DNA of 64,000 bases from Haloarchaeobius salinus (GTDB lineage Archaea; Halobacteriota; Halobacteria; Halobacteriales; Natrialbaceae), in NCBI RefSeq assembly GCF_024464185.1, contig NZ_JANHAU010000007.1, positions 1 through 64,000 on the forward strand. The letters are read 5' to 3'. Position 1 is the first letter of the stretch, and the number at the start of each line of letters is the position of its first letter. The translations under genes and the position numbers were made by a program. This document shows, in pieces, positions 8,484-32,619 of the stretch. A model generated the notes under the pieces. It was not told the origin of the DNA. It did no database searches and saw only the letters and a program-made list of their open reading frames with translations.

Positions 8484-9037
8484 TCCGAATGAGACCCTCA
8501 AAAATCTCCGTCTTCCAACCGATAGACTTCGAACTGGTTGAAGTTGCTAAGCACACGATGCATCCGGTCCCTCTGTTCGGCTTGCTGATTCATGGTGGCA
8601 TCTCCCATTCTTCGGTGCGGATAGACATTCCACTGTGACTGTCGTCGGACTTTAGGGACCTACTCTGTTAACCAACAGATTCAATCTATGCCCTGTGCTG
8701 TTGGTTAATCCACGACCTTCCTCCTGCACTCTCCTCGTGGACCGCTTTCCGAAATTCCGGGTGGTTTTGGACGACCTCGTAGACATTGTCGTACCGTTCG
8801 AATTCTGCTCCTTCCGTTTCTGCTGAGTGATCAGTCCACTGTTGGTTTTGGGATTTCTGATTGAGGTTGTGGCTGCGCGCGCAGCGGAGCGAGCACGGAG
8901 CGGAGGGCGGGGCGGTGGGGTTGCGGTGCCAGGCAAGATGTGACCAGACAGAGAGGGCACAGGGACGACTCTCACAGCTCCTCCGTCGAGTCGGCAAAAA
9001 AGAGAGCACAGTGGGGCCAAGAGAAGATGCTGCGAGC
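8484..9037. other. Gap with a possible coding remnant
   Basis: No convincing complete gene. On the minus strand an acidic stretch (EGAEFERYDNVYEVVQNHPE, ending INQQHRA at 8686) looks like a protein C-terminus, but no start codon or family is evident. Its stop lies beside the inverted repeat at 8668-8708. The right half has GC-rich low-complexity sequence. Confidence 0.4.
8668..8708. repeat. TTAACCAACAG / CTGTTGGTTAA inverted repeat (site 1)
   Basis: Two perfect 11-base arms, TTAACCAACAG (8668-8678) and CTGTTGGTTAA (8698-8708), with a 19-base spacer. The same arms occur at 20155-20183 and 23153-23182 with short spacers, and one arm alone at 12092-12102. The right arm encodes the last codons of a truncated minus-strand frame. 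Confidence 0.6.
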
Positions 9038-17475: not shown

Positions 17476-18153
17476 TCAGTCTCGACCCATCGTACTATGA
17501 TGCGAGGTCTCGATATCAACGTCGTATTCGCTGGCGATGATTTCCAGCGCGGGCTCGTACGCTGGCCGGTTCTGCAGCATCTGATCGATTGCGCTCTCTA
17601 AGGGGACGACCGGACTTCCGTCCACCCATTCGACGTCGAACCCGTCAGGTTGCGGGAACAACACGTAGTGTACGTTCCCGTCGACGTCGCTGGCATCCGG
17701 GCGCTCGTTGATCGTTGCCTCGATTCCATACTGTTCGAAGAACGCGATCCACCGTTCGATGTCTTGGTCGTGGACCTGGATGAACACAGGATAGTCGTCG
17801 TGACTGCGGGCGATCTGGTACCCGCCGTGTGTCCAGACGTACGCGGCATCGATCTCTGTGTACGCGAACTCCATGCCGGCGAAGTGCGGAATGATGTAGG
17901 CGTCTTCCTGTGAGACTGCGTGCCGACTGTACACCGCAGCCATCATTTCGGCGTACTGCTGTCGCATCGCGTGGTCGATGACCTGGATTCCAGTATCGGT
18001 ATTGGAGATAATATCTTCGGCTTCTAACCGTTCGACCCAGTCGTACGTCCACGAGTACGATTTCCCGATCTTGTTCGCGATACGGTTGATTGAATCGCCA
18101 CGCTTCGCTGCTATAACGATTTTCGCAGCTGTCGCATCGATCAAGTCTTCCAT
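17476..18153 (-). CDS. HTH protein with haloarchaeal C-terminal domain
   Basis: A 225-residue protein from the ATG at 18153. A longer frame exists, but its first 59 residues are low quality and Ser/His rich. The N-terminus (DATAAKIVIAAKRGDSINRI then IGKSYSWTYDWVERLE) is a winged HTH. The C-terminal domain (DAAYVWTHGGYQIARSHDDY onward) is the one also found, truncated, at 701-1117. In haloarchaea, as far as I recall, this arrangement often accompanies a nucleotidyltransferase gene. None is present downstream here, so its partner may have been lost. Probably a transcriptional regulator or antitoxin. Confidence 0.65.
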   Translation of the reverse strand: MEDLIDATAAKIVIAAKRGDSINRIANKIGKSYSWTYDWVERLEAEDIISNTDTGIQVIDHAMRQQYAEMMAAVYSRHAVSQEDAYIIPHFAGMEFAYTEIDAAYVWTHGGYQIARSHDDYPVFIQVHDQDIERWIAFFEQYGIEATINERPDASDVDGNVHYVLFPQPDGFDVEWVDGSPVVPLESAIDQMLQNRPAYEPALEIIASEYDVDIETSHHSTMGRD

Positions 18154-18377
18154 CTGTAGTTGCAACCCTTTCCCAGAGCGCTGAACTCGGTCTTGATTAT
18201 CGCCAACGCGATGATGACTAATAGAAGTTCCGTCGTGGTAAGGTAGCAATTGCGACGCTGGGCTGGTCACACAATCGTACCAACTGACTTGGTTAGTCTC
18301 GCTGCGAGGTCCCATCTCGTCAGTCCCCAATTTTCGGGGCCAAACAAACGCTCAGTCGAACCGAACGTACCTGTCGT

Positions 18378-18659
18378 TCACTCTTTTTCCGGCCGCTCGT
18401 CCGGTAGCTCGCTCGATAGGCGGTCGAATCGTGACTGGGCATCGGCACGGCGCTGCTCTGTGTCCTGTTCTCGATACCGAATCGAGACCGTCTCGTCCGA
18501 GATCTCGAGCTCGAAGATTGCGTCCTGGTGGCGGCCAGCTTTCGGGAGCATGCCACGCGCCACGCTGATCTCGTCCACCTGCTCACCATCTTGCTCGAGC
18601 AGCAGGACGGCGGTCGATTCCTCGAACCGGTCGAGGACGGCGGTGTAGGTTTCAGGCAT
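18378..18659 (-). CDS. DUF3006 family small protein
   Basis: A 93-residue protein with the DUF3006 pattern: TAVLDRFEESTAVLLLEQDG at the N-terminus, then LPKAGRHQDAIFELEI and a charged helical tail. DUF3006 genes commonly sit beside ComEC-like beta-lactamase-fold genes, as here: its start overlaps the end of the lipoprotein gene by one base. Function unknown; it may bind the lipoprotein or its substrate. Confidence 0.75.
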   Translation of the reverse strand: MPETYTAVLDRFEESTAVLLLEQDGEQVDEISVARGMLPKAGRHQDAIFELEISDETVSIRYREQDTEQRRADAQSRFDRLSSELPDERPEKE

Positions 18660-20062
18660 CAGTAGCTCTCCTCGATGACGACTGTCCCATCATCAGTACG
18701 CACAAACACGGTATCGCCGGCGTTGTTCCAGACGGCAGTTTCCTGGCCCCAGTACAGGTCGGTCGCTGAATCGGTCCCACTCCCGCTGTGGATAGTCACG
18801 CGCTCGCCGGGCGCCAGCGTGAAGCCGTCAGGGAACTCGAACGTCTTCCCGGCCTCGTCGAGGAGTTCCCAGCCACTCAGGTCCAGTGCCGCATCGCCGC
18901 TGTTCTCGAGGACGACGTACTCGTCGTTGAGGTTTTCGTTGTCGTTGCCCTCGGCATCGGCGTTGATGTCCACGAGCGAGATCTCCCCGCCACCGTCGGT
19001 GGCCACATCGGTCGCGGGCGCAACAGAGTCAGTCCCCACGATCGTCTCTCGGACGACCGCCTCGCTGTAGGTCCCTGGTTCGACGGGGTCGCCAGACCGG
19101 AGCGACGTCGGGTCAGTCGGTGCCTCGTCCTGGGTGGCGATACTGACCGCGCTCCCGTTGCTGTAGACCACGACGTTCCCGTGGGTCGCAGTCCAGTAGG
19201 TCGGGATCGAGCGGCTGGCTAATCGCTGCAGGGCTTCCTCGTGGGGGTGGCCGTACTGGGAGTCGTACGCGCTGGTGACCACGACGACCTGTGGCTGGAC
19301 GGCGTCGAGGAGGCCCGACCGGGAGCTGGAGCGACTGCCGTGGTGGCCGGCTTTGAACACGGTCGAATCGAGCTCGGCACCGTACTCGTCGACGAGTGCT
19401 GACTCACCCTCGACTTCGGCATCGCCGGTGAACAGGAAGCTCGTCTCGCCATGGGTCACACGGAGCACGAGGCTGTTCTCGTTGCGCTGTCCGTTCGCGA
19501 GGAGGTCCTCTGGTGGACCGAGCACGGAGACGTCGACCCCATCCACAGGCATCTGTGCGCCTTCGCGAGTCTGGTAGAGGGGCACCTCGTACTCCTCAAC
19601 CGCGTCGAGATACCGGCTGTAGGTGTTCGAACTCGACGCGAGGCCGGGGTCGTAGACGGCGCCGACGCCCTCACCCTCCGTCTCGAAGTACTCGATGACC
19701 GCTGCGTGGCCGCCGATATGGTCCGCGTCGGCGTGCGAAGTCACGAGATGGTCGATGCGGTCGACGCCGATCTCCTGCAGGTAGTTGATTACGTACTCTC
19801 CTTCTTCCGGCCAGTCCCCGCTATCGATGAGCATCGTCTCGCCAGCCGGTGTTCGTAGCAGGATGCTATCCGACTGCCCGACGTTGATGAAATGGACCTC
19901 CAGGGTCCCGTTCGCCGTCACAGCGGTATCCTCATCGACGGGCGTCGCTCCCTCAGTCGGATTGTCGGTCGGTGTCGCCCCCGAGTCGGTGGGGGCGGCA
20001 CACCCGGCCAGGGCAATCATACAGACGATGACGAGGACGATCACCCGGCGTGAAGCGCGCAT
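18659..20062 (-). CDS. ComEC-like metallo-beta-lactamase-fold lipoprotein with lamin-tail domain
   Basis: A 467-residue exported lipoprotein from the ATG at 20062, with lipobox LAGC (C21). The beta-lactamase fold spans about residues 53-310. It includes VGQSDSILLRTP, IDSGD, metal motif SHADADHIGGH (H110, D112, D114, H115), FTGDAE and GHHGS. This is the nuclease-like part of ComEC/Rec2, without the channel. After a linker, residues about 365-467 form a lamin-tail domain (DEYVVLENSGDAALDLSGWE, FTLAPGERVTI). It probably hydrolyses extracellular DNA or another phosphodiester at the cell surface, and could help DNA uptake or nutrition. It is upstream of and coupled to the DUF3006 gene. Confidence 0.82.
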   Translation of the reverse strand: MRASRRVIVLVIVCMIALAGCAAPTDSGATPTDNPTEGATPVDEDTAVTANGTLEVHFINVGQSDSILLRTPAGETMLIDSGDWPEEGEYVINYLQEIGVDRIDHLVTSHADADHIGGHAAVIEYFETEGEGVGAVYDPGLASSSNTYSRYLDAVEEYEVPLYQTREGAQMPVDGVDVSVLGPPEDLLANGQRNENSLVLRVTHGETSFLFTGDAEVEGESALVDEYGAELDSTVFKAGHHGSRSSSRSGLLDAVQPQVVVVTSAYDSQYGHPHEEALQRLASRSIPTYWTATHGNVVVYSNGSAVSIATQDEAPTDPTSLRSGDPVEPGTYSEAVVRETIVGTDSVAPATDVATDGGGEISLVDINADAEGNDNENLNDEYVVLENSGDAALDLSGWELLDEAGKTFEFPDGFTLAPGERVTIHSGSGTDSATDLYWGQETAVWNNAGDTVFVRTDDGTVVIEESY

Positions 20063-20154
20063 GATGACACGCTTCTGCCCGAGTCGCAAAAGCATACCCC
20101 TGGCTGCAGACGAGAAGGTGCCTGCGCTGGGTGAGTACTGGGGGTTCGAGGCTG

Positions 20155-20183
20155 TTAACCAACTCACAACGGCTGTTGGTTAA
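20155..20183. repeat. dif-like site, left of the origin module (site 2)
   Basis: TTAACCAACTC, a 7-base centre, then CTGTTGGTTAA: 11-7-11 geometry with arms matching at 9 of 11 positions. It sits in non-coding DNA 72 bases before the repeat protein gene, and has the same orientation as the site at 23153-23182 on the other side of orc1. The size and symmetry are those of XerC/D- or tyrosine-recombinase core sites. Confidence 0.5.
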
Positions 20184-20254
20184 CCAGGTGCGACTGGAAA
20201 CCGGAACTGCTTCCAGTAAGTAGGACGTTCGAAAAAACACGCAGGGGACAGACC

Positions 20255-21190
20255 GTGACCGAGAGAGAAACGTTGCTCGCGGAGCTCCACGCGCTCGAAG
20301 AAGAGCTCGGTCGAGCGCCCGACATCGCTGACCTGCTTGAGGCGAATGACGTTTCCCCGCTCACAGCGTTTCAGGACGAGTTCGGGTCGTGGTACCGGGC
20401 ACTATGGGCCGCCGACATCACCCCGACGGAGCCGCCGAGCTACTGGACCAAAGCGGACATCGAAGCCGGACTGTGGGCTCTCGGAGACGGGCCGGATGCG
20501 CCGCCGGTGACCGGCGACCTCACACGGGGTCCCATCTATCCATCGCTGACCGTCATCCACAACCGGTTCGAGAGCTGGGAGGCCGCACTCGAAGCTGCGG
20601 GCTACGACACGCCCGTGGACCCGAACAAGAAGTGGACCGAGGAGGAGTTGCTGGAGGACCTGCTCACACTGGGCGAGGCACTGGACCGAAAACCGAAGGC
20701 GGTCGATGTCGCACACGAGGCGGACATGGCCGCGCCGAGAACGTACGACCACGTCTTCGGGTCCTGGAACGCCGCCCTCGAGGAAGCTGGATTCTCCGCG
20801 ACGCCAGTCGGTAACCCACGAGAGTATTCGGACGAGGAACTCATCAGCGAACTCCGGTCGATAGCTGCGGAGCTCGATCGACAACCACGGATGGTTGATG
20901 TCGGAGAAGATGATGAGTCTCCATCTCCGAGCGTGTTCAGGGATCGGTTCGGGACCTGGCCTGCTGCGCTGGCGGCTGCAGGTATCGAGACAGAATTCGA
21001 GCGAGCTCCACAGTATACCGACTCGGATCTTCTCGACGCACTCCGAACGCTCACAGAGAGAGTTGAGCGCACACCGAATATCGACGACCTGAATGAATTC
21101 GACGATCTGCCGGCACCAGCGACCTACTATCGCCGATTCGAGTCGTTCACCGAGGCGCTGGAGCGCTCCGGAGTCAGCTCGAAGACGTGA
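20255..21190 (+). CDS. Homing-endonuclease-associated repeat protein
   Basis: A 311-residue protein starting at GTG, built of five ~57-residue repeats beginning near residues 2, 62, 125, 190 and 250. Each repeat has a helix (EELLEDLLTLGEALDRKPKA), a linker, and an F/W-containing second half (YDHVFGSWNAALEEAGF; FRDRFGTWPAALAAAGIE). This is the HNH/homing-endonuclease-associated repeat, thought to bind DNA. No HNH or LAGLIDADG nuclease motif is present. Its position right before the origin repeats suggests it may bind the origin or take part in plasmid maintenance. Confidence 0.75.
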   Translation: MTERETLLAELHALEEELGRAPDIADLLEANDVSPLTAFQDEFGSWYRALWAADITPTEPPSYWTKADIEAGLWALGDGPDAPPVTGDLTRGPIYPSLTVIHNRFESWEAALEAAGYDTPVDPNKKWTEEELLEDLLTLGEALDRKPKAVDVAHEADMAAPRTYDHVFGSWNAALEEAGFSATPVGNPREYSDEELISELRSIAAELDRQPRMVDVGEDDESPSPSVFRDRFGTWPAALAAAGIETEFERAPQYTDSDLLDALRTLTERVERTPNIDDLNEFDDLPAPATYYRRFESFTEALERSGVSSKT

Positions 21191-21244
21191 CTACCCACGA
21201 ACGAAATGTTGACTTTCCAATATTATAGTTCGATACGTCTCCCA

Positions 21245-21346
21245 GAAAGCACTGGAAATGGTGGGGTAGGGTGGCTGGTGGAAAGCATTGGAACCAGTGG
21301 GGTGGGTACTCGTAAGTGAGGTATAGCACTGGAACCAGTGGGGTGG
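21245..21346 (+). repeat. ORB family A: three direct origin recognition boxes
   Basis: Three plus-oriented copies: AAAGCACTGGAAATGGTGGG (from 21246), AAAGCATTGGAACCAGTGGG (from 21282) and ATAGCACTGGAACCAGTGGG (from 21324). All have a CACTGGAA-type core and a GGGGT tail, the pattern of archaeal ORBs bound by Orc1/Cdc6. Start-to-start spacings are 36 and 42 bases. Confidence 0.75.
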
Positions 21347-21378
21347 AAGCGTGGTCCTCCATCCCACGTCGTATAGGC

Positions 21379-21405
21379 CACACCCCTCATACCGAGTGAA
21401 AGCAT
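21379..21405 (-). repeat. Divergent ORB-like box shared with 1091-1117
   Basis: On the minus strand CTTTCACTCGGTATGAGGGG resembles an ORB and is nearly identical to the copy at 1091-1117. It faces the family A array. Confidence 0.45.
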
Positions 21406-21428
21406 GGCATCGAACGGCCTCGGGACGG

Positions 21429-21543
21429 CACACCACTATGTCCAGTGTCTTTTCCGGTGTTGTCTTGTGGTTTAGACACCACTGTGTCCGGTGTCTTTTA
21501 TATATCCAAGGTGGACACAGACACACCACCATGTCCAGTGTCT
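21429..21543 (-). repeat. ORB family B: three minus-oriented boxes
   Basis: Read on the minus strand, three copies have the form AGACACTGGACATGGTGGTG with 1-3 changes each. They occupy 21429-21450 (centre CATAG), 21475-21496 (ACACCGGACACAGTGG) and 21522-21543 (perfect). They point away from the AT-rich stretch that follows. The core differs from family A at ACTGGACA versus ACTGGAAC. Confidence 0.7.
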
Positions 21544-21697
21544 CGGCGTTCTAGCATGGGGACGAGCCCTTGAAGAACTATACACGTAAGAAAAGTTTAA
21601 ATCATAGTGCTGTGAGCTAGTCCGTAGGATACCAATTTACCGGCTTAGACAGGGTCACGCGACAACCAACAGCAGCGGCCGCTTACACTAACATCCT
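21544..21697. other. Probable replication origin unwinding region
   Basis: A non-coding stretch between the inverted family B boxes. Its middle (about 21574-21645) is AT-rich, including AAGAAAAGTTTAAATCATAG and GATACCAATTTACC. An AT-rich duplex-unwinding element flanked by oppositely oriented ORBs is the standard archaeal origin layout. Confidence 0.6.
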
Positions 21698-21768
21698 AAG
21701 ACACTGGACATGGTGGTGTGTATCTCCCCCAGTCTCGGGACACACAAGACACACCAGACACGGTGGTC
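21698..21768 (+). repeat. ORB family B: plus-oriented boxes before orc1
   Basis: AAGACACTGGACATGGTGGT (from 21698) is a perfect family B box. A degenerate copy, AGACACACCAGACACGGTGG, starts at 21748. Both lie within 110 bases upstream of the orc1 start, so Orc1 may also repress its own gene. Confidence 0.65.
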
Positions 21769-21805
21769 CCTAGATTTATATTCTCACCGAAACACCACGA
21801 GCAGT

Positions 21806-23020
21806 ATGGGGTTGTTCGAGCCAGACACCGACATCTATCGCGACCGTGACGCCCTCCGCGAAGACTACCAGCCAACAGAAATCATCGGTCGCGACGACGA
21901 ACTCAACCGGTATATCAGCGCTCTCCAACCCGTAATCAACGGTGACCAACCCAACAACATCTTCCTCTACGGCAAAGCCGGCGTCGGCAAAAGCGCCTGC
22001 ACGCGCTACCTGCTCGACGAACTCAAACAGGACGCCACCCGGCACGACGTCACCCTGTCGACGATCTTCACGAACTGCGAAGACCTCAACACGAGCTATC
22101 AGGTCAGCGTCGAACTCGTGAACGAACTCCGACCGCCGGATGACCAGATCAATACCACCGGCTACCCACAGCACCGCGTCAACGAGATGCTATGGGAGGA
22201 ACTCGACAGCCTGGGCGGAACGGTCATCATCGTGCTCGACGAAGTCGATCACCTCAGAAACGACAGTATCCTCTACCAGATCCCGCGGGCTCGCGCGAAC
22301 GGCAATCTCGACGACGCGAAAGTCGGCATTATCGGCATTTCGAACGATTTCAAATTCCGTGACACGCTGTCGTCGAAAGTCCAATCGAGCCTGTGCGAGA
22401 AAGAACTGCAGTTCCCAGCGTACGACGCGGAGGAACTTCGCGCGATTCTCCGTCAGCGCGCCGACACGGCGTTCTATGACGACGTGGTTTCGAAGGACGT
22501 GCTGGCGCTGTGTGCGGCGTTCGGCGCACAGGACGCCGGGGACGCTAGGCAGAGCCTTGACTTGTTGATGGAGGCGGGCGACCTGGCGGCCGAGGAGAAT
22601 GTGGAGGAACTCACCGAGTATCACGTCAGGGAGGCACGGTCGCGAATGGAGGAAAGCCGTGTCAAGGACGGCATTATCGGGCTAACTGATCAGGGAAAGC
22701 TTGTGCTGTATGCGTTGTTGATGACTGAGCAGGCTGGGAAGACGCCGACAAGGGCGCGTGACCTGCAGGCGCGGTACGAACTCGTCTGTGATCGGTATGG
22801 TGTGAGCCCGTTGGTGCCGCGTCGGATGCGTGACCATCTGAACGAACTGGCGATGCTCGGGATTGCGAACTCGACCGAGCGCAACGAGGGCGAGGCGGGC
22901 GGCCGGTACTATGAGTACGAGCTCGCGACCGATCGCGAACTGTTGTTGGATGCGCTGTCGGATACGGTAGATAACGTCGGCGACCCAGAACGCTTGAAAC
23001 AGCAGTTTCAGCGCTCGTAG
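21806..23020 (+). CDS. orc1: Orc1/Cdc6 replication initiator
   Basis: A 404-residue AAA+ initiator. Walker A is GKAGVGKS (residues 56-63), Walker B VLDEVD (about 143-148) and sensor 1 GISND (N180). The C-terminal winged helix (TDQGKLVLYALLMTEQAGKT through VPRRMRDHLNELAMLGI) binds ORBs. I chose the ATG at 21806 (MGLFEPDTDIYRDR) because Orc1 proteins start this way and the upstream in-frame codons run through an ORB. ORBs flank it on both sides. It should initiate replication of this replicon by opening the adjacent origin and recruiting MCM. Confidence 0.93.
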   Translation: MGLFEPDTDIYRDRDALREDYQPTEIIGRDDELNRYISALQPVINGDQPNNIFLYGKAGVGKSACTRYLLDELKQDATRHDVTLSTIFTNCEDLNTSYQVSVELVNELRPPDDQINTTGYPQHRVNEMLWEELDSLGGTVIIVLDEVDHLRNDSILYQIPRARANGNLDDAKVGIIGISNDFKFRDTLSSKVQSSLCEKELQFPAYDAEELRAILRQRADTAFYDDVVSKDVLALCAAFGAQDAGDARQSLDLLMEAGDLAAEENVEELTEYHVREARSRMEESRVKDGIIGLTDQGKLVLYALLMTEQAGKTPTRARDLQARYELVCDRYGVSPLVPRRMRDHLNELAMLGIANSTERNEGEAGGRYYEYELATDRELLLDALSDTVDNVGDPERLKQQFQRS

Positions 23021-23025
23021 CCCGA

Positions 23026-23101
23026 GAAGACACTGGACATGGTGGTGTGTATTACTGGTGTATGATTACCATTGGAAAGACACTGGACACAGTGGTGTGG
23101 G
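23026..23101 (+). repeat. ORB family B: two boxes downstream of orc1
   Basis: AAGACACTGGACATGGTGGT (from 23026) is identical to the box at 21698. AAAGACACTGGACACAGTGG (from 23077) has two changes. They begin 5 bases after the orc1 stop, so boxes bracket the gene. Confidence 0.7.
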
Positions 23102-23152
23102 GTGCTTCTGGACACGTCGGATTACCCGAGGACGTCCCCTCTCGCACGGTGA

Positions 23153-23182
23153 TTAACCAACACGAACTCGTCTGTTGGTTAA
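23153..23182. repeat. dif-like site, right of the origin module (site 3)
   Basis: TTAACCAACAC, an 8-base centre, then CTGTTGGTTAA. It has the same orientation as site 2 at 20155-20183. Together they bracket 3.0 kb containing the repeat protein, the ORBs and orc1. Confidence 0.5.
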
Positions 23183-23329
23183 CTAATCTCCACGGTGTCG
23201 TGGTTACATTGCGTCACGATGGCTCTATTGAACGCCATTAGTTCAACACAACTCTCTGGAACAGGTGTTAGGTAGGTGTGCAGATTGACCGAAGGTTATT
23301 CAGGAGACAGCCATTATCAAGGCGTACCC

Positions 23330-23604: not shown

Positions 23605-24753
23605 TCACGATTGGAGTCGTGAGAGCTCCGTCTCTAACTCCTGAATCCGTTCCTGTTTCTGTTCAAGTGTCGTCTCAAGTTCTTCCACTCGCTCTCGTAG
23701 GAGACGATTTTTCTCCGCGAGGTGGCTCTCGGTCCGAGAAGCAGCGCCCCGTCTTTCAGGCGATCCAGCAGAGTCGGGTGTCACGTCATCCTGTTCGGAG
23801 TCGGCAGCATCGGGGTCGTAGAACTCGGAGGTCTGTGCAATCGCCCGTTCGACGGTCTTCTCGCCATACGTCGACCCGTCGGCGTAGTGTACTTCGTCCC
23901 ATTTCTCACGGAGGAGCCCGGACTGACGGAACAACTCGTCTATTCGATACCGGTCACCGCCTGTCCAGAACGCCAGCAGACAACACAGCGCCATGTCGGC
24001 CTCTGACTGGCTCTCGTAGCCTGCCGTGGACCCCCGCCAGAGTCGCTCGAACTTCTCGCCGTTGCTGGCGTTCTGTGCCCGCTCAAGCAATTCTTCATCG
24101 GGGAGGTCCATTTCCCCTCCTGTCCTAGTCCGGCTCGTCGGCGACCCACGTGCGCCGCCTCGTACGGTTTCGTGGGTGGACTGCGGGGCCTGAGTGGTGT
24201 CCGAATCCGGAGCCAGGTACTCCTCGTATACCTCTGCGAGTGCGGTCTGTCGCTCCTGGACCGTCCCCGGCGTCGCCTCGACACGGTCCCCAGTCATCGT
24301 GAAGAACCGCGCCGTCTCGTACATCTCTACCGACCCCTTACGGCTTCTGTCACCGGGGATCTCACCCTCGATGATCACGTGGAAGCCCGTCCCCGACGGC
24401 GACACCTCGGTGAAGGATTCCAGTGTTACCACGATCTCTTGCGCGTCCTCGGATGGAACACCCGTCTCCGGGTCGCGACAGTCGTCCAGGTCCACGCCAA
24501 CGAACGGATCCTCGTCGGTGAACACGAAGCCGATACCGTCGGCCCCAGTGGAACTGTACTCGACAGCTGTCTCGAACGACCGCCAGGTCTCCTCGTCGGT
24601 CGCCGACGCAAACCCACCGTCACCTGGAATGACTGGTACCTTCGTATCCTTCCCATCCCGCTCCTTCACCCGCCAGCACACCCACTGGTCTCGCGACCGC
24701 AATGCCTCCGGAATCGCTCCCGCATCGACCAGTGTTTCGCAGCCCTCGTTCAT
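23605..24753 (-). CDS. Plasmid/phage-type primase-polymerase-like protein
   Basis: A 382-residue protein. The N-terminal half (RDQWVCWRVKERDGKDTKVP, GIGFVFTDEDPFVGVDLDDC, SPSGTGFHVIIEG) is the archaeo-eukaryotic prim-pol-like domain seen in NrS-1-type polymerases and haloarchaeal plasmid proteins; VGVDLDD supplies the metal-binding acids. Next comes a helical bundle with CCLLAFWTGGDRYRIDELFR and STYGEKTVERAI. The last 50 residues are coiled coil (ERVEELETTLEQKQERIQEL). It lacks a helicase domain. It probably primes DNA during plasmid replication or transfer. Four iteron-like repeats lie just upstream. Confidence 0.72.
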   Translation of the reverse strand: MNEGCETLVDAGAIPEALRSRDQWVCWRVKERDGKDTKVPVIPGDGGFASATDEETWRSFETAVEYSSTGADGIGFVFTDEDPFVGVDLDDCRDPETGVPSEDAQEIVVTLESFTEVSPSGTGFHVIIEGEIPGDRSRKGSVEMYETARFFTMTGDRVEATPGTVQERQTALAEVYEEYLAPDSDTTQAPQSTHETVRGGARGSPTSRTRTGGEMDLPDEELLERAQNASNGEKFERLWRGSTAGYESQSEADMALCCLLAFWTGGDRYRIDELFRQSGLLREKWDEVHYADGSTYGEKTVERAIAQTSEFYDPDAADSEQDDVTPDSAGSPERRGAASRTESHLAEKNRLLRERVEELETTLEQKQERIQELETELSRLQS

Positions 24754-25093: not shown

Positions 25094-28000
25094 TCATTTT
25101 GATATGTTATCGGAAGAACTGGGCGATTTCATCTCCTCGGAGAGGTCGATTCCCTCGTACACGGTGACCCGTTCGCCGTCGACGCGCTGGCGTCCAGGCT
25201 CGACCGGAACGTGGTCAGATAACTTCCGGGCGAACCAGACCTTGTTCGTCCCGCTAATCTCGTACTCGTCGATCCACGACGAGTACGCCTCAAAGAGGTT
25301 ACTCTTTGGAACGCTGGCGTCAGGATCAACAGTGATGTGGCGATTGACGAACACCGCGACACCGTCGTCGTCCGGGTCCAGTTCGAGAGTCGTCTCCGAT
25401 TCCTCCGTTTTATCCGAACCCCCGGCAGGGGTGGTAGTAGTCATGTCTCCGTCTGGCTCTGCGTGGGAGTCTTGACCCTGCCCACCTGTGCTCCTCTCGT
25501 CTAATGCTGAGAGGTCGGCAGCGACCGGGATTGTGTCCCCGTCCTCGTACCACAGTGGCGGTTCATCGCTGGGGAGGACGAGGATGTGATAGTCGTCAGG
25601 TTCGAACGCTGGATTCGGAAAGTCGCGAGATGGGAGGAACGGCCGTTTCACAACCACCCAGTCTTCCTCGAATGCCGTTTTCGATTCGTAGGTGTGATTC
25701 TGCCCCTGAGAGTATACCGTGTACTGGGCCGTCTCAGGGTCGTAGCTGAAGTGCGCTGGCAGGTCATCTTTCGAAATCGGACCCTCAGCATCAAAACGAG
25801 CGAAGACGCGGTCTCCGTTCGTGAGCTCATACTTCGAGTCCGTCCGATTCCAGAAAGTCCGGTCAGAACCGTCGGTTCTGGGCCGGACAGCCGTAACACC
25901 TCCTCTGGTATTCGCACCGCCGCCGAAGGTGAGCCGTTCATCCGTCGCGTAGAACCGCTCGGTCCCATCGGCCAATTCGCGCACCGGCGTTTCGAGAATG
26001 TCCTCGATTCTAGCAGCCTCTGCCGTCCGCTCGTCCTCGTCAGGTCGCACCACGAACAGCGGGACCTGGTCCATCAACTGCGCACGTCTGAGATTCTGCA
26101 GGACCTTCGCAGGCTTCGTCGGTGTCGTCGTCTCGGCTTCGATGGCGAACTCGCTGTCCAGGTCAGGATGCGTCGCGATTCCGTCGGGGCGCTCACTCCC
26201 GTCCTGTTCGACTAGCTCGACGGCGAACCCGAGACCTGTCAGGGACTCCTCGATGTCGAACAGCAGCTCGTCGTGCTCGCTCCCGCCAGCGGCAGACACG
26301 TTGCCCGTTTCTGGTGCCGAGATATCCTGCCCGTCATCACTCAATCGGACGACTACAGCATCGTTCTCTACGGAAAGGTCGACCTCGACGAGAGGAGACT
26401 CCCGTCGGACCTCGGTGAGTTCGTCGATACTCGTCTCCAGGTCGGAGTCGGACGCACTCTCCAGCCGAGAGAGGGCTTCGTCGTCGACGACCTCGACGGG
26501 CACCCAGCCGTTTTCTTCGTGTTCACCACGCCGGAGCTGGACCGCACGAATCGACTCGGCCATCACCCGGTCGAGCGCCAGCGATTCCGGGGCGGTATCG
26601 CCATCGTAGTCACGATAAATGAGGTTCCGAAGAATCTCCGTATCCGTCGGCGGGTCAGTCCCGTATCGCTGCAGACTTGCCTCGATGATGTCGTCGATCT
26701 CGTCACTCGACCGCAGCGGCGGATACGCCGGGAACGTCCGCAGCAGTACGGGCTCGGAGTACCGGCCACCCGCGAGCGGGATCTTCGTCCAGATTTTGAA
26801 CTGGTCGGTCGTGATGAGGTCCTCGGCGGTGTAGTCACGGAACCGCTTCATCAACAGGTCGGCGTCGTCGCTGTCATTCACCGAGAACGTTAGCAGGTTG
26901 TCGCAGTTGTTCTGCATCGCTTTCAGCGTATCCTCGTCGAGCTGCGAGGGATACTGCGACGCCAGGGTCACCGAGAGTCGCATTGAGCGAGCACGGGCGA
27001 GCATCGACTCGATATCCAGATTCTCGCTGGCGATCTCGTCGAACTCGTCACAGACCACGAAGTACGGGTCTGGCGTGGTATCCTGCTGGTAGGAGCGACG
27101 CTGCACCGCAGACCAGAGATTTCGCATCACACCCAGCGTGACCATCTTCTTGATGTCCGTGTTCTCGACGGGCGTGCGGACGATGACGATGCGGTCGTTC
27201 TCGATGATGTCGTCGAAGTCGATGGTGCTTGTCCGGTGGGCGATAATCCGCCGAATCACGCCGTTTTCGACCCAGGATTTGATCCGCTTGAGCAGCGGGC
27301 GGACGTCTTCGTCCTCCATCTTCGCGATCTCCTTGCAGAACTCGCTGATGTACGGGTCCTCGACATCTTCTGCGAAATCCTTGCGGCGTTCGGCATTCAG
27401 GAGGATGAAGTACATATCGATGATCGAGAACTGCTTTTCGGACTTCATCATCGCGCGAGCCATCGACTCGGTGATGGCCTCCATGTTGATGCCCCAATAG
27501 TCGCTCGTGTCGAACACCGCTTTCAGGTTCTCGACCCGGCTTTCGATCTCGTTCTCGCGCTCCTCGAGTGTCTCGCACTCGGGCAGTTCGAGGAAGTTCA
27601 TCCCGACTGTCTTCTCGTGGGATGTCGACCCAGACTCGATCCAGACCACATCGTCAAGGCGATGCTCGGGGAGCATTCGGAGCAGTTCCCGCGAGTCAAC
27701 GCCCTTCGGTTCGCAGAACATGAAGCCGTAGCCGGCGTATGCCCACTGCACCATCTGGTTGCGCTCTAATGTCGACTTCCCGTACCCGGTCGTCCCGGCG
27801 ATCCAGATGTGCCGGAACAGCGAGCTGAACTTGAGTGGTGCTTCACGGAACCCCGTCTGTGGGTCTTCGGTGTAGCCAATCCAGAGCGGGGGTTGGTCCT
27901 CGTGAGCGGCCGACTCGAACATTTCTCTGACGAACGGGCCCGCAACTACCTCTCCATCCACTGTCTCCGTCAGGACTTCCTTGCCGCCGACACGGATGGA

Positions 28001-28165
28001 TTGCTGTTCGACGATGTCGTACAACGGACGAGTCTTGGACTCCTCGACGTACTCGGTCTGTTCGCTGTCACGGTCCGCACCGTCGTGCGGCACGGGCAGT
28101 GACGAATCCTCTTCGTCGTCATCGTCCCCACCGAAGAAACGGTTAAACACGGTCCTCACCCCCAT
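25094..28165 (-). CDS. VirD4-type coupling ATPase fused to a PD-(D/E)xK-like and a C-terminal winged-helix domain
   Basis: A 1023-residue protein. Residues about 95-490 are a VirD4/TraG conjugation ATPase: Walker A GTTGYGKST (124-132), Walker B YFVVCDEFDE (368-377), and the SQYPSQLDED and FRDYTAEDL segments. Residues about 630-725 look like a PD-(D/E)xK nuclease fold: P660-D661, then FAIEAETT (E676, E678) and KPAKVLQNL (K684, K687). The final 70 residues (KSNLFEAYSSWIDEYEI, NKVWFARKLSDHV) resemble the winged helix at the C-terminus of phage D5-type primases. It overlaps the upstream gene by 23 bases. It should dock DNA to the secretion channel; the extra domains may cut or recognise that DNA. 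Confidence 0.8.
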   Translation of the reverse strand: MGVRTVFNRFFGGDDDDEEDSSLPVPHDGADRDSEQTEYVEESKTRPLYDIVEQQSIRVGGKEVLTETVDGEVVAGPFVREMFESAAHEDQPPLWIGYTEDPQTGFREAPLKFSSLFRHIWIAGTTGYGKSTLERNQMVQWAYAGYGFMFCEPKGVDSRELLRMLPEHRLDDVVWIESGSTSHEKTVGMNFLELPECETLEERENEIESRVENLKAVFDTSDYWGINMEAITESMARAMMKSEKQFSIIDMYFILLNAERRKDFAEDVEDPYISEFCKEIAKMEDEDVRPLLKRIKSWVENGVIRRIIAHRTSTIDFDDIIENDRIVIVRTPVENTDIKKMVTLGVMRNLWSAVQRRSYQQDTTPDPYFVVCDEFDEIASENLDIESMLARARSMRLSVTLASQYPSQLDEDTLKAMQNNCDNLLTFSVNDSDDADLLMKRFRDYTAEDLITTDQFKIWTKIPLAGGRYSEPVLLRTFPAYPPLRSSDEIDDIIEASLQRYGTDPPTDTEILRNLIYRDYDGDTAPESLALDRVMAESIRAVQLRRGEHEENGWVPVEVVDDEALSRLESASDSDLETSIDELTEVRRESPLVEVDLSVENDAVVVRLSDDGQDISAPETGNVSAAGGSEHDELLFDIEESLTGLGFAVELVEQDGSERPDGIATHPDLDSEFAIEAETTTPTKPAKVLQNLRRAQLMDQVPLFVVRPDEDERTAEAARIEDILETPVRELADGTERFYATDERLTFGGGANTRGGVTAVRPRTDGSDRTFWNRTDSKYELTNGDRVFARFDAEGPISKDDLPAHFSYDPETAQYTVYSQGQNHTYESKTAFEEDWVVVKRPFLPSRDFPNPAFEPDDYHILVLPSDEPPLWYEDGDTIPVAADLSALDERSTGGQGQDSHAEPDGDMTTTTPAGGSDKTEESETTLELDPDDDGVAVFVNRHITVDPDASVPKSNLFEAYSSWIDEYEISGTNKVWFARKLSDHVPVEPGRQRVDGERVTVYEGIDLSEEMKSPSSSDNISK

Positions 28166-29303
28166 CTACCCAGCTCCCGGCATCTGGACCGGTAGCCTGG
28201 TCATCTCTCGTCGGTGATTGTACTGGGTTGCCTCTCTCGTCGTACTTGACACTGTCAGCGGGAATGCGGTCACCGCGCTGAGTGTAGCGCCAGTCGATCT
28301 TCGGGGTCGTGATCTCGTTGTTCGGGATGTGTGCGACGCCGGCGAGCTCGTCGACGGTCATGATCATCTCGCGGTCGACCCACTCACGGGCGGCCATTCG
28401 CTCGACGAACTCGGAGAGCTTGCGCTGGCGCTTTGATTTGCGACGATGCGAGACGGGCGTGTCGTCGAGTCCTTGCTCGGTGATGGCGTTGTAGTACTTC
28501 CTGAACATCCCCGCGACGCCTCGAGCGCGGGCTTCAGCTTCGGTTTGATCACGAGAGACGGCGAGGACACGGATATTGACGTGGAAGGCCTGCTGGCCGC
28601 GCTGTCGTTCGATGGTATCTGCTGCTTGCTTGTCTTTCGCGGTTGCCGGGCGAACTCTCGGGTTCAGCCAGCCGACCGAGGTTCCCTGTCGGAGTCCGTG
28701 GGCGAGGTCGTCGACGCTGTTGTGTTTGAACCGGTCGCCGTCGGTCCAGGACTGCTTCGCGGGCCTGAAGACGACCTGTGTGACGACCTTGCTGTCGTCG
28801 AGAGACAGCATCTCGCTCGTGATCTCGCCATACGGGTCGACCTCGAACCCCTCGGCGTTGTGGTGTCGGATCGGATAGTATGGCATCTTCTCCATCGACA
28901 GCCACGCGCCAGCGACATACTCGTCGGGCTCGATCTGGGGGAACGCATGGCCGCTGTCGACTGGGAATACCTCCGAGTTGGCGTAGTTGTTCCCCACACG
29001 ACGCCGGAACTTGTCCGCGGCCGCCTCCGTCGCGGCGTGCATGTAAAACGTGATCACTCCCTGGTCGAACCACACCTCGAAGGAGTGGTGGTCACTCGTG
29101 TTCTTCCCCCGCCAGTTCGTCGTCACGTCGTGGACCGACTGGAGGACGCCAGCGCCGTCGACGATGCCATCGTTCTCCTTGTACGGGCGGATTCGGAGTA
29201 GTGTGCCGCCGGTGTTCTGCTGTGTCCACGTCAGTGGCTCGTCGATATCGAGCTGTGTCGCCTCGTACTTGGGGTCGCCACCGAAGAGTCCGAGCTTACC
29301 CAT
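28143..29303 (-). CDS. Conjugation-cluster protein between VirB4 and VirD4
   Basis: A 386-residue soluble acidic protein from the ATG at 29303. It is located between the two secretion ATPases and overlaps both. It has a mixed alpha/beta N-terminal region (ATQLDIDEPLTWTQQNTGGT, FEVWFDQGVITFYMHAA, FRRRVGNNYANSEVF) and a basic helical region (SHRRKSKRQRKLSEF). This could be a family conserved only in haloarchaeal transfer clusters; I cannot name it. Position suggests a core cytoplasmic component. It has no Walker motif and no relaxase HUH motif. Confidence 0.65.
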   Translation of the reverse strand: MGKLGLFGGDPKYEATQLDIDEPLTWTQQNTGGTLLRIRPYKENDGIVDGAGVLQSVHDVTTNWRGKNTSDHHSFEVWFDQGVITFYMHAATEAAADKFRRRVGNNYANSEVFPVDSGHAFPQIEPDEYVAGAWLSMEKMPYYPIRHHNAEGFEVDPYGEITSEMLSLDDSKVVTQVVFRPAKQSWTDGDRFKHNSVDDLAHGLRQGTSVGWLNPRVRPATAKDKQAADTIERQRGQQAFHVNIRVLAVSRDQTEAEARARGVAGMFRKYYNAITEQGLDDTPVSHRRKSKRQRKLSEFVERMAAREWVDREMIMTVDELAGVAHIPNNEITTPKIDWRYTQRGDRIPADSVKYDERGNPVQSPTRDDQATGPDAGSWVDGGEDRV

Positions 29304-32300
29304 CGGACTCACCTCCACTAGTCCCGCCATCTGTTCGTGGAGCGACCTCGCGCGCCTGCTTCTCTTGGGCGGTTGCAGCGACAGCGTGCAGCAGGTCGTC
29401 GGCGGAGAGTCCTTCCTCGAGGAGTTGCTCAGCAGCTTCCGGTGACAGTCCGTAGCGGCTCGTCAGCGCGTTCTGCTTTGCTTGCTCCTCGACGAACGAC
29501 TCGAAGTCCGCGTACTCGTCGGGAACGTCCGTGATCGCATCCTCGATGAACGCTTTGTCCTCGGGTTCGTAGTCGATGACGCGGCGTTCGAACGCGTCAG
29601 CGACGACGTGAACCGGGTAGGTGCCGTGCTCTTCGATCCGGACGAGCGATTCGGAGTAACCGAGTTCGTCTCTTCCGGCGTCGGCACTCCGGATGTACTG
29701 ACGTTGTTCGCGGGTTAGTCCGATTTTGTCGGCGGTCTCGTCGTCGAGGTCGGGGAGCTTGTGGAAGACCTTGATTGGGCACATCCCGAGAATCTTCTCG
29801 GCCTGCTCGCTCTCGTAGAACTCCTGGGCGGTCTGGGAGAGCAGCACCATCCGCAGTCCGGCGTGGCGCTGGTGTCGGAATGCGGTTTCGAGGAAGTCCA
29901 GGTTCGCCCTGTCCTCGAAGAGGTAGTGAGCTTCGTCGATTGCGAGCTCGACGTTCCGGTCGGTGCGTTTGGCCTGCTGGTACACTGTCGAGAGCAGCAG
30001 CTGCATCAGGAACGTCTGCCGGTCGATCCCCGAGGCACTGCCCTCGATTTGCCCGAGGTCGATGTACACCACCTTGTTGTCACCTTCCAGAATGTCCACC
30101 TCGGATTTCTTCGAGAGGTTCTCGTACGCCCCGCCCTCGCTGAACGGCTGGAGTGCAATCGCGAGGTCGTCGGCGTACTGGGTGGCACGTTCACGAGCGG
30201 AGTCCGACGCAGCGATGTTGTGGTCCTCAGGATGGTCGGAAATATCGGCGAGGGCGTCGAGGACGTCCTGCATCGTCGGGGAGTTCGCTGGCGTGTGGGT
30301 GCTCACGTCGCCGGCGACGACACCGGCCTGCCGGTATGCCTCGTCGATCGCGTATGAGAGCACGCCGGTCTGGGCACCGAGCGTGATGTCCCTGCCTTCG
30401 AGGAAGTTCTCCAGTACGGCGAACACCTCGTCTTTCTTCGCCGAGAGGGGAGAGATCCCATCGTCAGCGTCGACGACGTGCTGCGGCGTCTGGCGGATCT
30501 CTAGTGGGTTCAGTTTCGTATCCCCACCCACGGTGATAGTCTTCGCATCGAGTGCGTCCGCGATGCCCTGGAACCCACCGACGGGGTCGATGAGGACGAG
30601 CATTGTGTCGTTCCGACGTTTCATCATCCGCAGATGCCGCATGATTCCGCCGAACGTCTTCCCCGCGCCGGGCATCCCGACCACGAGTTCGCTGTGACCA
30701 GTCTCGAGTGCCCACGGGTTAATTCGGACCGGGGAGCCGTTGTGGCCGTGGTAGCCGTACTCGATGCCGTCCCCCATCATCAGGTAGTCAGAACTGAACG
30801 GGAACATCGCGCCGACGGCCTGGTTGGTCATGGTCGACATCCGGTCGCGACCAAGCTCGTTTCGCCCGAGTGGTGAGACCGTCGCGAGACCTTTCTCCTG
30901 CCAGCGGCTCGCGACCTTGAGCGTACAGTTCGAGGGAGCGTCCTTCACCAGCGAGCGCAGACGGTTGGTCTGGGAGTCGAGGTCGTCCTTGCTCTCCGCG
31001 GTGAGCCGGATGAAGACCCCACCACGGTAGAACGAGGCTTCGTTTGCTCGGACCAGCGCACGCATGTACTTCGCCCGCTGGATATCATCCTCCAGGTCCT
31101 CTTCGTGGATTCCAGCGGCATCGTGCTGGTTGACCTTGAGGTCCGAAATCCAGTCGGCCATCATGTCCTGGGCGGACTGGTTGTCGAACGGATCGAGGTG
31201 GACGCTGATGTCCGTGTTCAGGTCTGTCTCGAGCAGCACCCGTTCGAACATCCCCTCGACTGGCTCTTCCGGGAACTGGTCGATCCAGAACGTCCGCACG
31301 AACGTCTCGTCGTCGATGACGGCGTACGTCGGATTCCAGTCGACCGTTGAGGGAGCAATGATCGACTGGTGGCGGTGGGAGACACTATCGTACAGTTTCG
31401 TGGTCGACAGCCCCTCAGACTCACTCTCATCTTTGGTATCGTCTTCAGCCGTCTCTTCGTCGTCAAGCGGGAACTCCCACTCGGCCTCACCATCTGCAGC
31501 TGTTGCCTCGACAGATAGCACAGAGTCGTCACTATCTGTGCTCACGACGTCCTCCGGACTGGGCGTCGACGGAACGCCGTCGCTGATGCCGTGAGAAACG
31601 ATCGGGAACGTACCGATCGCGTTCGAGAGATTGCCGTACCTCTCCCGCTGACAGCTCCAGTACTCCTTGGTGACGCGAGCGAGCTCGTACGAGTCGACCG
31701 GCGAAATAGTACACCGGTACAGTGACGTCCCGCCACGCCGAATCTGCGATAGTCTGGATTCCAGCTTCGACTGTTTCAGCTGGTCGCGATCCTCGGGCGA
31801 GAGGTCGCTCGTCTGGAACCGACTGAACACAGACCCGACGACCGGCAGCGAGGCGAGGTACGTGACGACGCTGTCATCTGCTCCGCTGTCTGCTTCGATA
31901 TCGGCGTCGGTGACTGCGGTGATGATGTAGAACTCACGAACCGTCGTGGTTTCTGAGTCGGGTTCGCCATTGTCGTCCGTGCTCTCTTCGATCCTCGTTC
32001 GCAGCAATCGCTTGAGGACTGGACGGGACTGGACGTCGCCATCGCGGAGTCGCTCGCGGTACGTGTGGACGAGGTCGTCCCGGTCGACGGTTCGGCTGGT
32101 CGTGTAGATCTTCACCGGGAAGTCGATGTTCGCGTTCACGAACTCCGAGAACGACTGCACAGCTTTCGACCAAGCATCGTCATCCTCGAGGGAGAGGTTC
32201 GCCGGTGTGACCCGCATTGCGCCGACGAGCGCACCGTCCGTCCGCTCGATGCCGTAGGGATACACGCGCTCCAGCCGCGTCATGTACCGGACCTCGCTGT

Positions 32301-32619
32301 TATCCTCCCCACCGTGAGTGTAGGACTTGTTCTTCACCGCCCACGAGAGCCGTGCGCCCAGCCACTCGGTGAGCCAGAGGTGTCTCGGTTTTACCTTGTG
32401 CAGGAGCAGCAATAGAATCGCCAGCATCAGTCCGAAGCCGAACGTTGGGATCGTGAGCGTCGCTGGAACGAGTGCAGCGGCGACGAAGGTGACGAATCCC
32501 ACGCCGAGGAATAACACGAGTTCAGCGATGCTGTAGCCTCGCAAGAAGGCGGTCGTCCCCCCGAGGGACTGATGGATTCTTCTGGCACTGTACTCGCCTG
32601 TATTGGATTTCGTACTCAT
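29296..32619 (-). CDS. virB4: VirB4-type secretion ATPase with fused VirB3/PrgI-like membrane domain
   Basis: A 1107-residue protein. The N-terminal ~110 residues contain two close transmembrane helices (IAELVLFLGVGFVTFVAAAL, FGFGLMLAILLLLLH), like VirB3/PrgI, followed directly by the VirB4 part. Walker A is GMPGAGKT near residue 645, and Walker B LAIDEAHYLFED near 896. The motif LRMVLLSQTAQEFYESEQAE is typical of VirB4 arginine-finger regions. A variable acidic insert lies near residues 375-410. This ATPase powers assembly of the type IV channel. It overlaps the downstream gene start by 8 bases. Confidence 0.88.
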   Translation of the reverse strand: MSTKSNTGEYSARRIHQSLGGTTAFLRGYSIAELVLFLGVGFVTFVAAALVPATLTIPTFGFGLMLAILLLLLHKVKPRHLWLTEWLGARLSWAVKNKSYTHGGEDNSEVRYMTRLERVYPYGIERTDGALVGAMRVTPANLSLEDDDAWSKAVQSFSEFVNANIDFPVKIYTTSRTVDRDDLVHTYRERLRDGDVQSRPVLKRLLRTRIEESTDDNGEPDSETTTVREFYIITAVTDADIEADSGADDSVVTYLASLPVVGSVFSRFQTSDLSPEDRDQLKQSKLESRLSQIRRGGTSLYRCTISPVDSYELARVTKEYWSCQRERYGNLSNAIGTFPIVSHGISDGVPSTPSPEDVVSTDSDDSVLSVEATAADGEAEWEFPLDDEETAEDDTKDESESEGLSTTKLYDSVSHRHQSIIAPSTVDWNPTYAVIDDETFVRTFWIDQFPEEPVEGMFERVLLETDLNTDISVHLDPFDNQSAQDMMADWISDLKVNQHDAAGIHEEDLEDDIQRAKYMRALVRANEASFYRGGVFIRLTAESKDDLDSQTNRLRSLVKDAPSNCTLKVASRWQEKGLATVSPLGRNELGRDRMSTMTNQAVGAMFPFSSDYLMMGDGIEYGYHGHNGSPVRINPWALETGHSELVVGMPGAGKTFGGIMRHLRMMKRRNDTMLVLIDPVGGFQGIADALDAKTITVGGDTKLNPLEIRQTPQHVVDADDGISPLSAKKDEVFAVLENFLEGRDITLGAQTGVLSYAIDEAYRQAGVVAGDVSTHTPANSPTMQDVLDALADISDHPEDHNIAASDSARERATQYADDLAIALQPFSEGGAYENLSKKSEVDILEGDNKVVYIDLGQIEGSASGIDRQTFLMQLLLSTVYQQAKRTDRNVELAIDEAHYLFEDRANLDFLETAFRHQRHAGLRMVLLSQTAQEFYESEQAEKILGMCPIKVFHKLPDLDDETADKIGLTREQRQYIRSADAGRDELGYSESLVRIEEHGTYPVHVVADAFERRVIDYEPEDKAFIEDAITDVPDEYADFESFVEEQAKQNALTSRYGLSPEAAEQLLEEGLSADDLLHAVAATAQEKQAREVAPRTDGGTSGGESDG

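Follow-up and report, generated by a model that had tools for sequence, protein, structure and literature searches.

A probable chimeric plasmid-type origin in Haloarchaeobius salinus with the presumed box array of a replaced initiator

The origin oriP-cdc6K of Haloarcula hispanica pHH400 could not be deleted and is the replicon's mapped origin by marker frequency (PMC3936714). At H. hispanica oriC2, a downstream box cluster controls the origin negatively, likely by titration (PMC3936714). Two different ORB-like elements have been reported beside a single orc1 in two haloarchaea (Hla_3512 on pHLAC01 and HQ2959A), an arrangement termed surprising (PMC3528665); the section of that paper that deals with it gives no explanation. 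The cdc6D origins of Haloarcula have undergone gain, loss and disruption, including disruption by a transposon (PMC4441112), and dormant origins have been described (PMC4595724).

Here we analyze an origin-like locus in a window of 64,000 bases, positions 1 to 64000 of contig C7 (218,145 bases), from a genome of 3,851,061 bases (3.85 Mb) with a completeness of 99.98%. The two ends of C7, compared for circularity, did not overlap, so we call the locus plasmid-type and not that of a proven plasmid. Its Orc1 is 62% identical to the sole orc1 match on pHH400, and it resembles the related pHsi388 locus (L030) in having inverted GGAC boxes upstream of the gene and further boxes downstream. Unlike the pHH400 group, in which the boxes read aacagcGGAC, the window has GGAC boxes reading gacactGGAC, and pHsi388 lacks the orphan GGAA array that we describe below. 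Boxes both upstream and downstream of the initiator gene are also a feature of H. hispanica oriC2 and oriC2D, although the window has two downstream boxes and oriC2D has 11 (PMC3936714). As at the Hla_3512 and HQ2959A loci, two distinct ORB types lie near one intact orc1, and the GGAA type is found on pHLAC01 too (PMC3528665). The locus also recalls the Haloarcula cdc6D origins, where origin and initiator are exchanged as cassettes, but here, unlike there, the replaced origin would have left boxes that identify the previous initiator (PMC4441112).

Architecture of the locus

The initiator gene, which we call orc1-B, lies at 21806 to 23020 on the + strand and encodes P0001, an Orc1/Cdc6 protein of 404 aa (Pfam Cdc6_lid, 3e-24; Cdc6_C, 8e-22; 2qby_A, E value 2.5e-62). 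P0001 has AAA+ and winged-helix domains, and its gene adjoins ORBs, as is characteristic of haloarchaeal Orc1/Cdc6-ORB origins. Its top plasmid matches are the orc1/cdc6 genes of haloarchaeal plasmids, at 60 to 73% identity.

The initial annotation had described two families of boxes around this gene, and both are present. Family A, read as three direct copies, consists of three GGAA boxes on the + strand at 21248 to 21267 (A1), 21284 to 21303 (A2) and 21325 to 21344 (A3); the string quoted for it matches A3 exactly and differs from the other two copies at 3 and 1 positions. Family B, put at about seven copies, has six clear GGAC boxes and one degenerate one. Three clear boxes are on the − strand, at 21430 to 21449 (B1), 21476 to 21495 (B2) and 21523 to 21542 (B3), and three are on the + strand, at 21700 to 21719 (B4) and, as had been noted, beyond the orc1 stop at 23020, where there are two (B6, 23029 to 23048; B7, 23079 to 23098). 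The degenerate box B5 (21748 to 21769, + strand) abuts the upstream side of a TTTATAT promoter element and is presumably an autoregulatory site. Boxes B3 and B4 form inverted ORBs that flank a moderately AT-rich gap at 21546 to 21697, with the G-rich ends of the B boxes pointing outward on both sides, again as first described. The AT content of the gap, which we presume to be the unwinding element, reaches a maximum of 62% per 50 bp, a weak enrichment.

The A and B boxes differ mainly at GGAA/GGAC, at GTGGGG/GTGGTG and in the bases preceding ACTGG. At the end where haloarchaeal ORBs have a G-string, the B boxes read GTGGTGT and the A boxes GTGGGGT, and there is no long G run in either. A core common to both, ACTGGANNNNGTGGNGT, has exactly seven matches in the genome, all within 21251 to 23098, and two more boxes fit it at one mismatch. 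The A pattern AGCANTGGAANNNGTGGGGT has three exact matches in the whole genome, all in the window. When two mismatches were allowed, the box pattern was found 12 times in the window against 5.9 expected, so only near-exact matches are informative.

We then compared this arrangement across distinct loci of the Orc1-B type, counting the window and its congener Haloarchaeobius iranensis among them. Boxes 3′ of orc1 were present in 39 of 39 loci, an inverted upstream box pair with a gap of 100 to 320 bases in 33, and a promoter box abutting TTTAT in 34. As judged by its layout, then, the combination of B boxes, gap, orc1 and boxes after orc1 is a standard haloarchaeal plasmid-type origin. The initial annotation had named boxes bracketing orc1 alongside a composite origin; since all 39 loci have boxes after the gene, bracketing is ordinary for the family and is no sign of fusion.

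Two box types and two Orc1 lineages

Box type followed initiator type closely. At 37 Orc1-B loci we counted 282 GGAC and 5 GGAA boxes, and at 10 Orc1-A plasmid loci, within 1.5 kb, 61 GGAA and 2 GGAC boxes; the loci are best-scoring matches and not a random sample, and the boxes of one locus are not independent, so a P value from this survey overstates the evidence. The Orc1-B totals set aside the window and H. iranensis, the two Haloarchaeobius composites, and the Orc1-A totals leave out the loci of G214, G204 and pHLAC01, in which the gene is broken or cut. We dropped from the count nine survey loci that duplicate others (L091 to L095, L101, L102, L112 and L117) and the frame-broken L017, which has no upstream boxes and two downstream. 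Two of the five GGAA boxes at Orc1-B loci are an orphan pair upstream of the B origin of Natrinema thermotolerans (L024), and the other three lack the usual box flank.

Orc1-A is the sister type of Orc1-B. In a tree that left out two fragments, Orc1-A formed a single clade (13 rows, 100/100 support), and the Orc1-B rows fell on one side of a weakly supported branch (58/13). The proteins also differ in a region that we take to be the recognition helix, placed by alignment to 2qby_A and by what is known of winged-helix proteins. This region reads LVPRRMRDHL in all 19 aligned B proteins, that of the window included, and is consistently unlike B in the 10 aligned A proteins, where it follows [IV]SxR[AS]VR[DE][YH]L. 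Together, these comparisons support a pairing of GGAA boxes with the Orc1-A clade and of GGAC boxes with Orc1-B. Sister Orc1 clades whose boxes are unlike at one main base and whose helices are unlike at a few residues offer a clean natural contrast for the study of origin discrimination by archaeal initiators. GGAA is not exclusive to Orc1-A, being present also in the boxes of a more distant Orc1 at C7:157366 (L002); that protein was considered as a reader of the A boxes and rejected because the flank of its boxes differs (AGCTTAGGAAACGGTGGAG).

In the window, the GGAA boxes adjoin orc1-B and not an Orc1-A gene. When we searched the whole genome with the C-terminal half of Orc1-A, no Orc1-A was found: the best match was P0001 itself (50%), followed by proteins at 40%, 38% and 37%. 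The suggestion that two box types reflect recognition by two Orc1 proteins is thus supported for two lineages but not for two proteins in this cell, and the search proposed for a second Orc1 does recover several further Orc1 proteins in the genome, none of them Orc1-A.

The divergence step and a proposed origin replacement

The other initial suggestion, a fused origin, was supported by comparison with congeners, in one of which the same A array is followed immediately by orc1-A. A backbone at 17487 to 21344 is common to two congeneric loci. In blastn, window positions 17487 to 21278 matched G214:C15 (L052) at 87% over 3.8 kb, through A1; past the aligned part, G214 has three more GGAA boxes, of A type only, and then orc1-A, the N-terminal half of which is 59% identical to P0001. 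This orc1-A is split, the gene stopping near the end of C15 and its C-terminal half lying at the end of contig C1, followed by inverted A boxes around an AT-rich stretch. The two contig ends bear inverted termini that match each other, the pattern that an inserted element would leave. With A boxes located beside orc1-A, canonical oriC1-type ORBs were dropped as the source of family A. The match to H. iranensis (L050; 87%) extends from 17487 through orc1-B to 23279, where homology stops. A second contig of H. iranensis (G204:C63), distinct from that of its B locus, also carries this A-type origin, next to an orc1-A whose reading frame is truncated and damaged. Across 391 genomes of the class, AGCANTGGAANNNGTGGGGT occurred exactly in five: the source genome, the congeners H. 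iranensis (G204) and G214, and G068 and G283 of another family, whose loci (L053 and L054) have five GGAA boxes each and no Orc1 match within the 13 to 14 kb examined.

Divergence between the window and H. iranensis drops sharply from about 21345, directly after A3. On the left, backbone genes are 80 to 92% identical, the stretch just before the A array is 67% identical and the array itself is 78% identical with many gaps. On the right, the A-B spacer and the surroundings of the B boxes are 91 to 94% identical, the AT-rich gap is at 87% and orc1-B at 97%. To the left of 21345, in the pre-A stretch and the spacers of the A array, 33 of 89 non-coding positions were mismatched; to the right, in the A-B spacer and B spacers, 18 of 164 were (P = 2e-6). 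Synonymous divergence followed the same pattern, with dS values of 0.42 and 0.52 in two backbone genes and 0.12 in orc1-B (P = 2e-13), although a short DUF3006-type backbone ORF had a dS of 0.23, indicating that rates vary. The MBL gene was excluded from this comparison because a stop in the H. iranensis match throws its codons out of register.

These observations (the pairing of boxes with initiators, the backbone shared with a congener's orc1-A, the step in divergence and the lack of an Orc1-A here) were made directly in sequence. We consider it probable that the window holds a chimeric haloarchaeal plasmid-type origin that arose when one origin replaced another, the A array being left over. 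In the simplest account, these backbones diverged first, and a B cassette of some 1.9 kb (about 21345 to 23279), carrying an origin and orc1-B, later spread into or between them, joined on its left at the last A box. The three GGAA boxes would then be the upstream array of an earlier resident initiator gene, orc1-A, which recombination would have swapped, together with its origin, for the B cassette. We favor this direction because H. iranensis has a truncated orc1-A and because Orc1-A fragments lie beside B origins in DC36 and G091; the reverse order, with an A origin replacing a B origin in G214, seems less probable.

We infer that the locus is active as an origin, and likewise what binds it, how it is regulated and in what order the swap occurred. 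Orc1-B would bind the inverted GGAC boxes flanking the weakly AT-rich gap, and the DNA would open at 21546 to 21697 for loading of the helicase. Through the degenerate box at its promoter, orc1 is probably autoregulated, while titration of Orc1-B is the probable role of the boxes after the gene, by analogy with the deletion data for H. hispanica oriC2.

Possible parallels to this remnant occur in Natrinema and G091. In addition to the orphan pair of N. thermotolerans, Natrinema DC36 (L021/L101) and G091 (L100) each have an Orc1-A C-terminal fragment next to the B origin, and in Natrinema halophilum about 6 kb separates an A origin from a B origin. Plasmid pHLAC01 has nine GGAA boxes, with another Orc1 on one side and, on the other, a fragment from the C terminus of an Orc1-A relative (59% identical to the G214 C-terminal half and 44% to P0001). 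Judging by its plasmid and its exact box sequence, this is probably the published Hla_3512 locus; an exact search with part of the element of the second published two-ORB case, HQ2959A, matched only one of the 391 class genomes, at pHLAC01 coordinates. A similar remnant of an Orc1-A origin may explain the two-ORB origin of pHLAC01. Such a reading gives a concrete, testable answer to the published puzzle of two ORB types at one initiator, namely, that a replaced origin can leave the second type behind. In the literature on such origins, as sampled here, we found no earlier description of orphan boxes as marks left by an initiator that was replaced.

HNH-type proteins are possible agents of origin recombination. 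A protein with five HNH-associated repeats is encoded at 20255 to 21190, next to the A array on its left, and three Natrialbaceae plasmids (L021, L022 and L023) have annotated HNH endonuclease genes right after orc1-B.

Present use of the A boxes and neighboring features

We compared the conservation of the A boxes with that of their surroundings. Between the window and H. iranensis, 54 of 60 A-box positions were unchanged, against 18 of 32 positions in the A spacers (P = 4e-4), so the array may still matter, although this conservation does not decide present use because most of the divergence may predate the swap. The B boxes were somewhat better kept (117 of 120 positions; P = 0.06).

One way for the array to matter is for Orc1-B itself to use it as a set of weaker sites that titrate the initiator or modulate the nearby origin. 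This is a rather unlikely alternative. The core ACTGGANNNNGTGGNGT is common to A and B boxes, none of the three A boxes differs from H. iranensis in its GGAA and TGGGG core amid heavily changed spacers, and negative control by extra boxes is known at H. hispanica oriC2 (PMC3936714). Set against this are the rarity of GGAA at the 37 Orc1-B loci (5 of 287 boxes, 3 of them without box flanks) and the recognition helix of the window protein, which is purely of B type.

We find it very unlikely that two initiators act now, with a second Orc1 binding the A array in trans. The A boxes are the proper boxes of another Orc1 clade, and the genome has other Orc1 proteins to offer, but its best match to Orc1-A is P0001, and the nearest two of the remaining three matches have box families of their own. 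Moreover, orc1-A is damaged in H. iranensis and split over two contig ends in G214. That the boxes are a single family with ordinary scatter is strongly disfavored and scarcely tenable, for although the variable middle of A1 (AAATGG) is intermediate, GGAA and GGAC divide A from B loci almost perfectly and the A array adjoins orc1-A in a congener.

Origin replacement, the reading that we prefer, could be one instance of recurrent initiator turnover in haloarchaeal megaplasmids, in which Orc1-B cassettes displace Orc1-A origins by recombination at box arrays and the orphan boxes are retained because they titrate Orc1-A, excluding competing A-type plasmids. We offer this wider proposal as speculation with a low chance of being right. 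If it were true, earlier initiators could be read from orphan boxes as from fossils, and the switch between GGAA and GGAC, together with the change in the recognition helix, would be a natural code for initiator specificity.

Contig C7 has other features of note. A second orc1 at C7:157366-158538 (L002) is flanked on either side by boxes of a separate family (TAGCTTAGGAAACGGTGGAG) and looks like a complete second origin, and a third orc1 homologue lies at about 162065 to 163312. To the right of the cassette, the window encodes an NrS-1 polymerase HBD domain protein (23605 to 24753) and two large TraG/TraD-like ATPases (25094 to 32619), which point to a plasmid-like or conjugative neighborhood. 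Near another orc1, on contig C5 of this genome, 18-base tandem units (CTGTGTTCGACCACCAGT and variants) occupy positions 2878 to 2967 of locus L005 amid eight direct origin boxes.

An inverted repeat, TTAACCAAC...GTTGGTTAA, occurs in the window at 8668 to 8708, 20155 to 20183 and 23153 to 23182, the last within the B cassette. The genome has 21 half-sites against 3 for reversed controls; most are paired, mostly on C7, with others near orc1 on C5 and C1. In a literature search, the 8-base half-site TTGGTTAA was not found together with haloarchaea, plasmid and inverted repeat. The repeat was present in 66 of 97 class genomes and 35 of 45 genera, with none for the reversed control. Half-site spacing was 30 to 34 in 32 of the 36 sites read and 20 to 23 in the other 4, corresponding to about three and two turns of the helix. 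In appearance the repeat resembles an operator or a partition-type site of secondary replicons.
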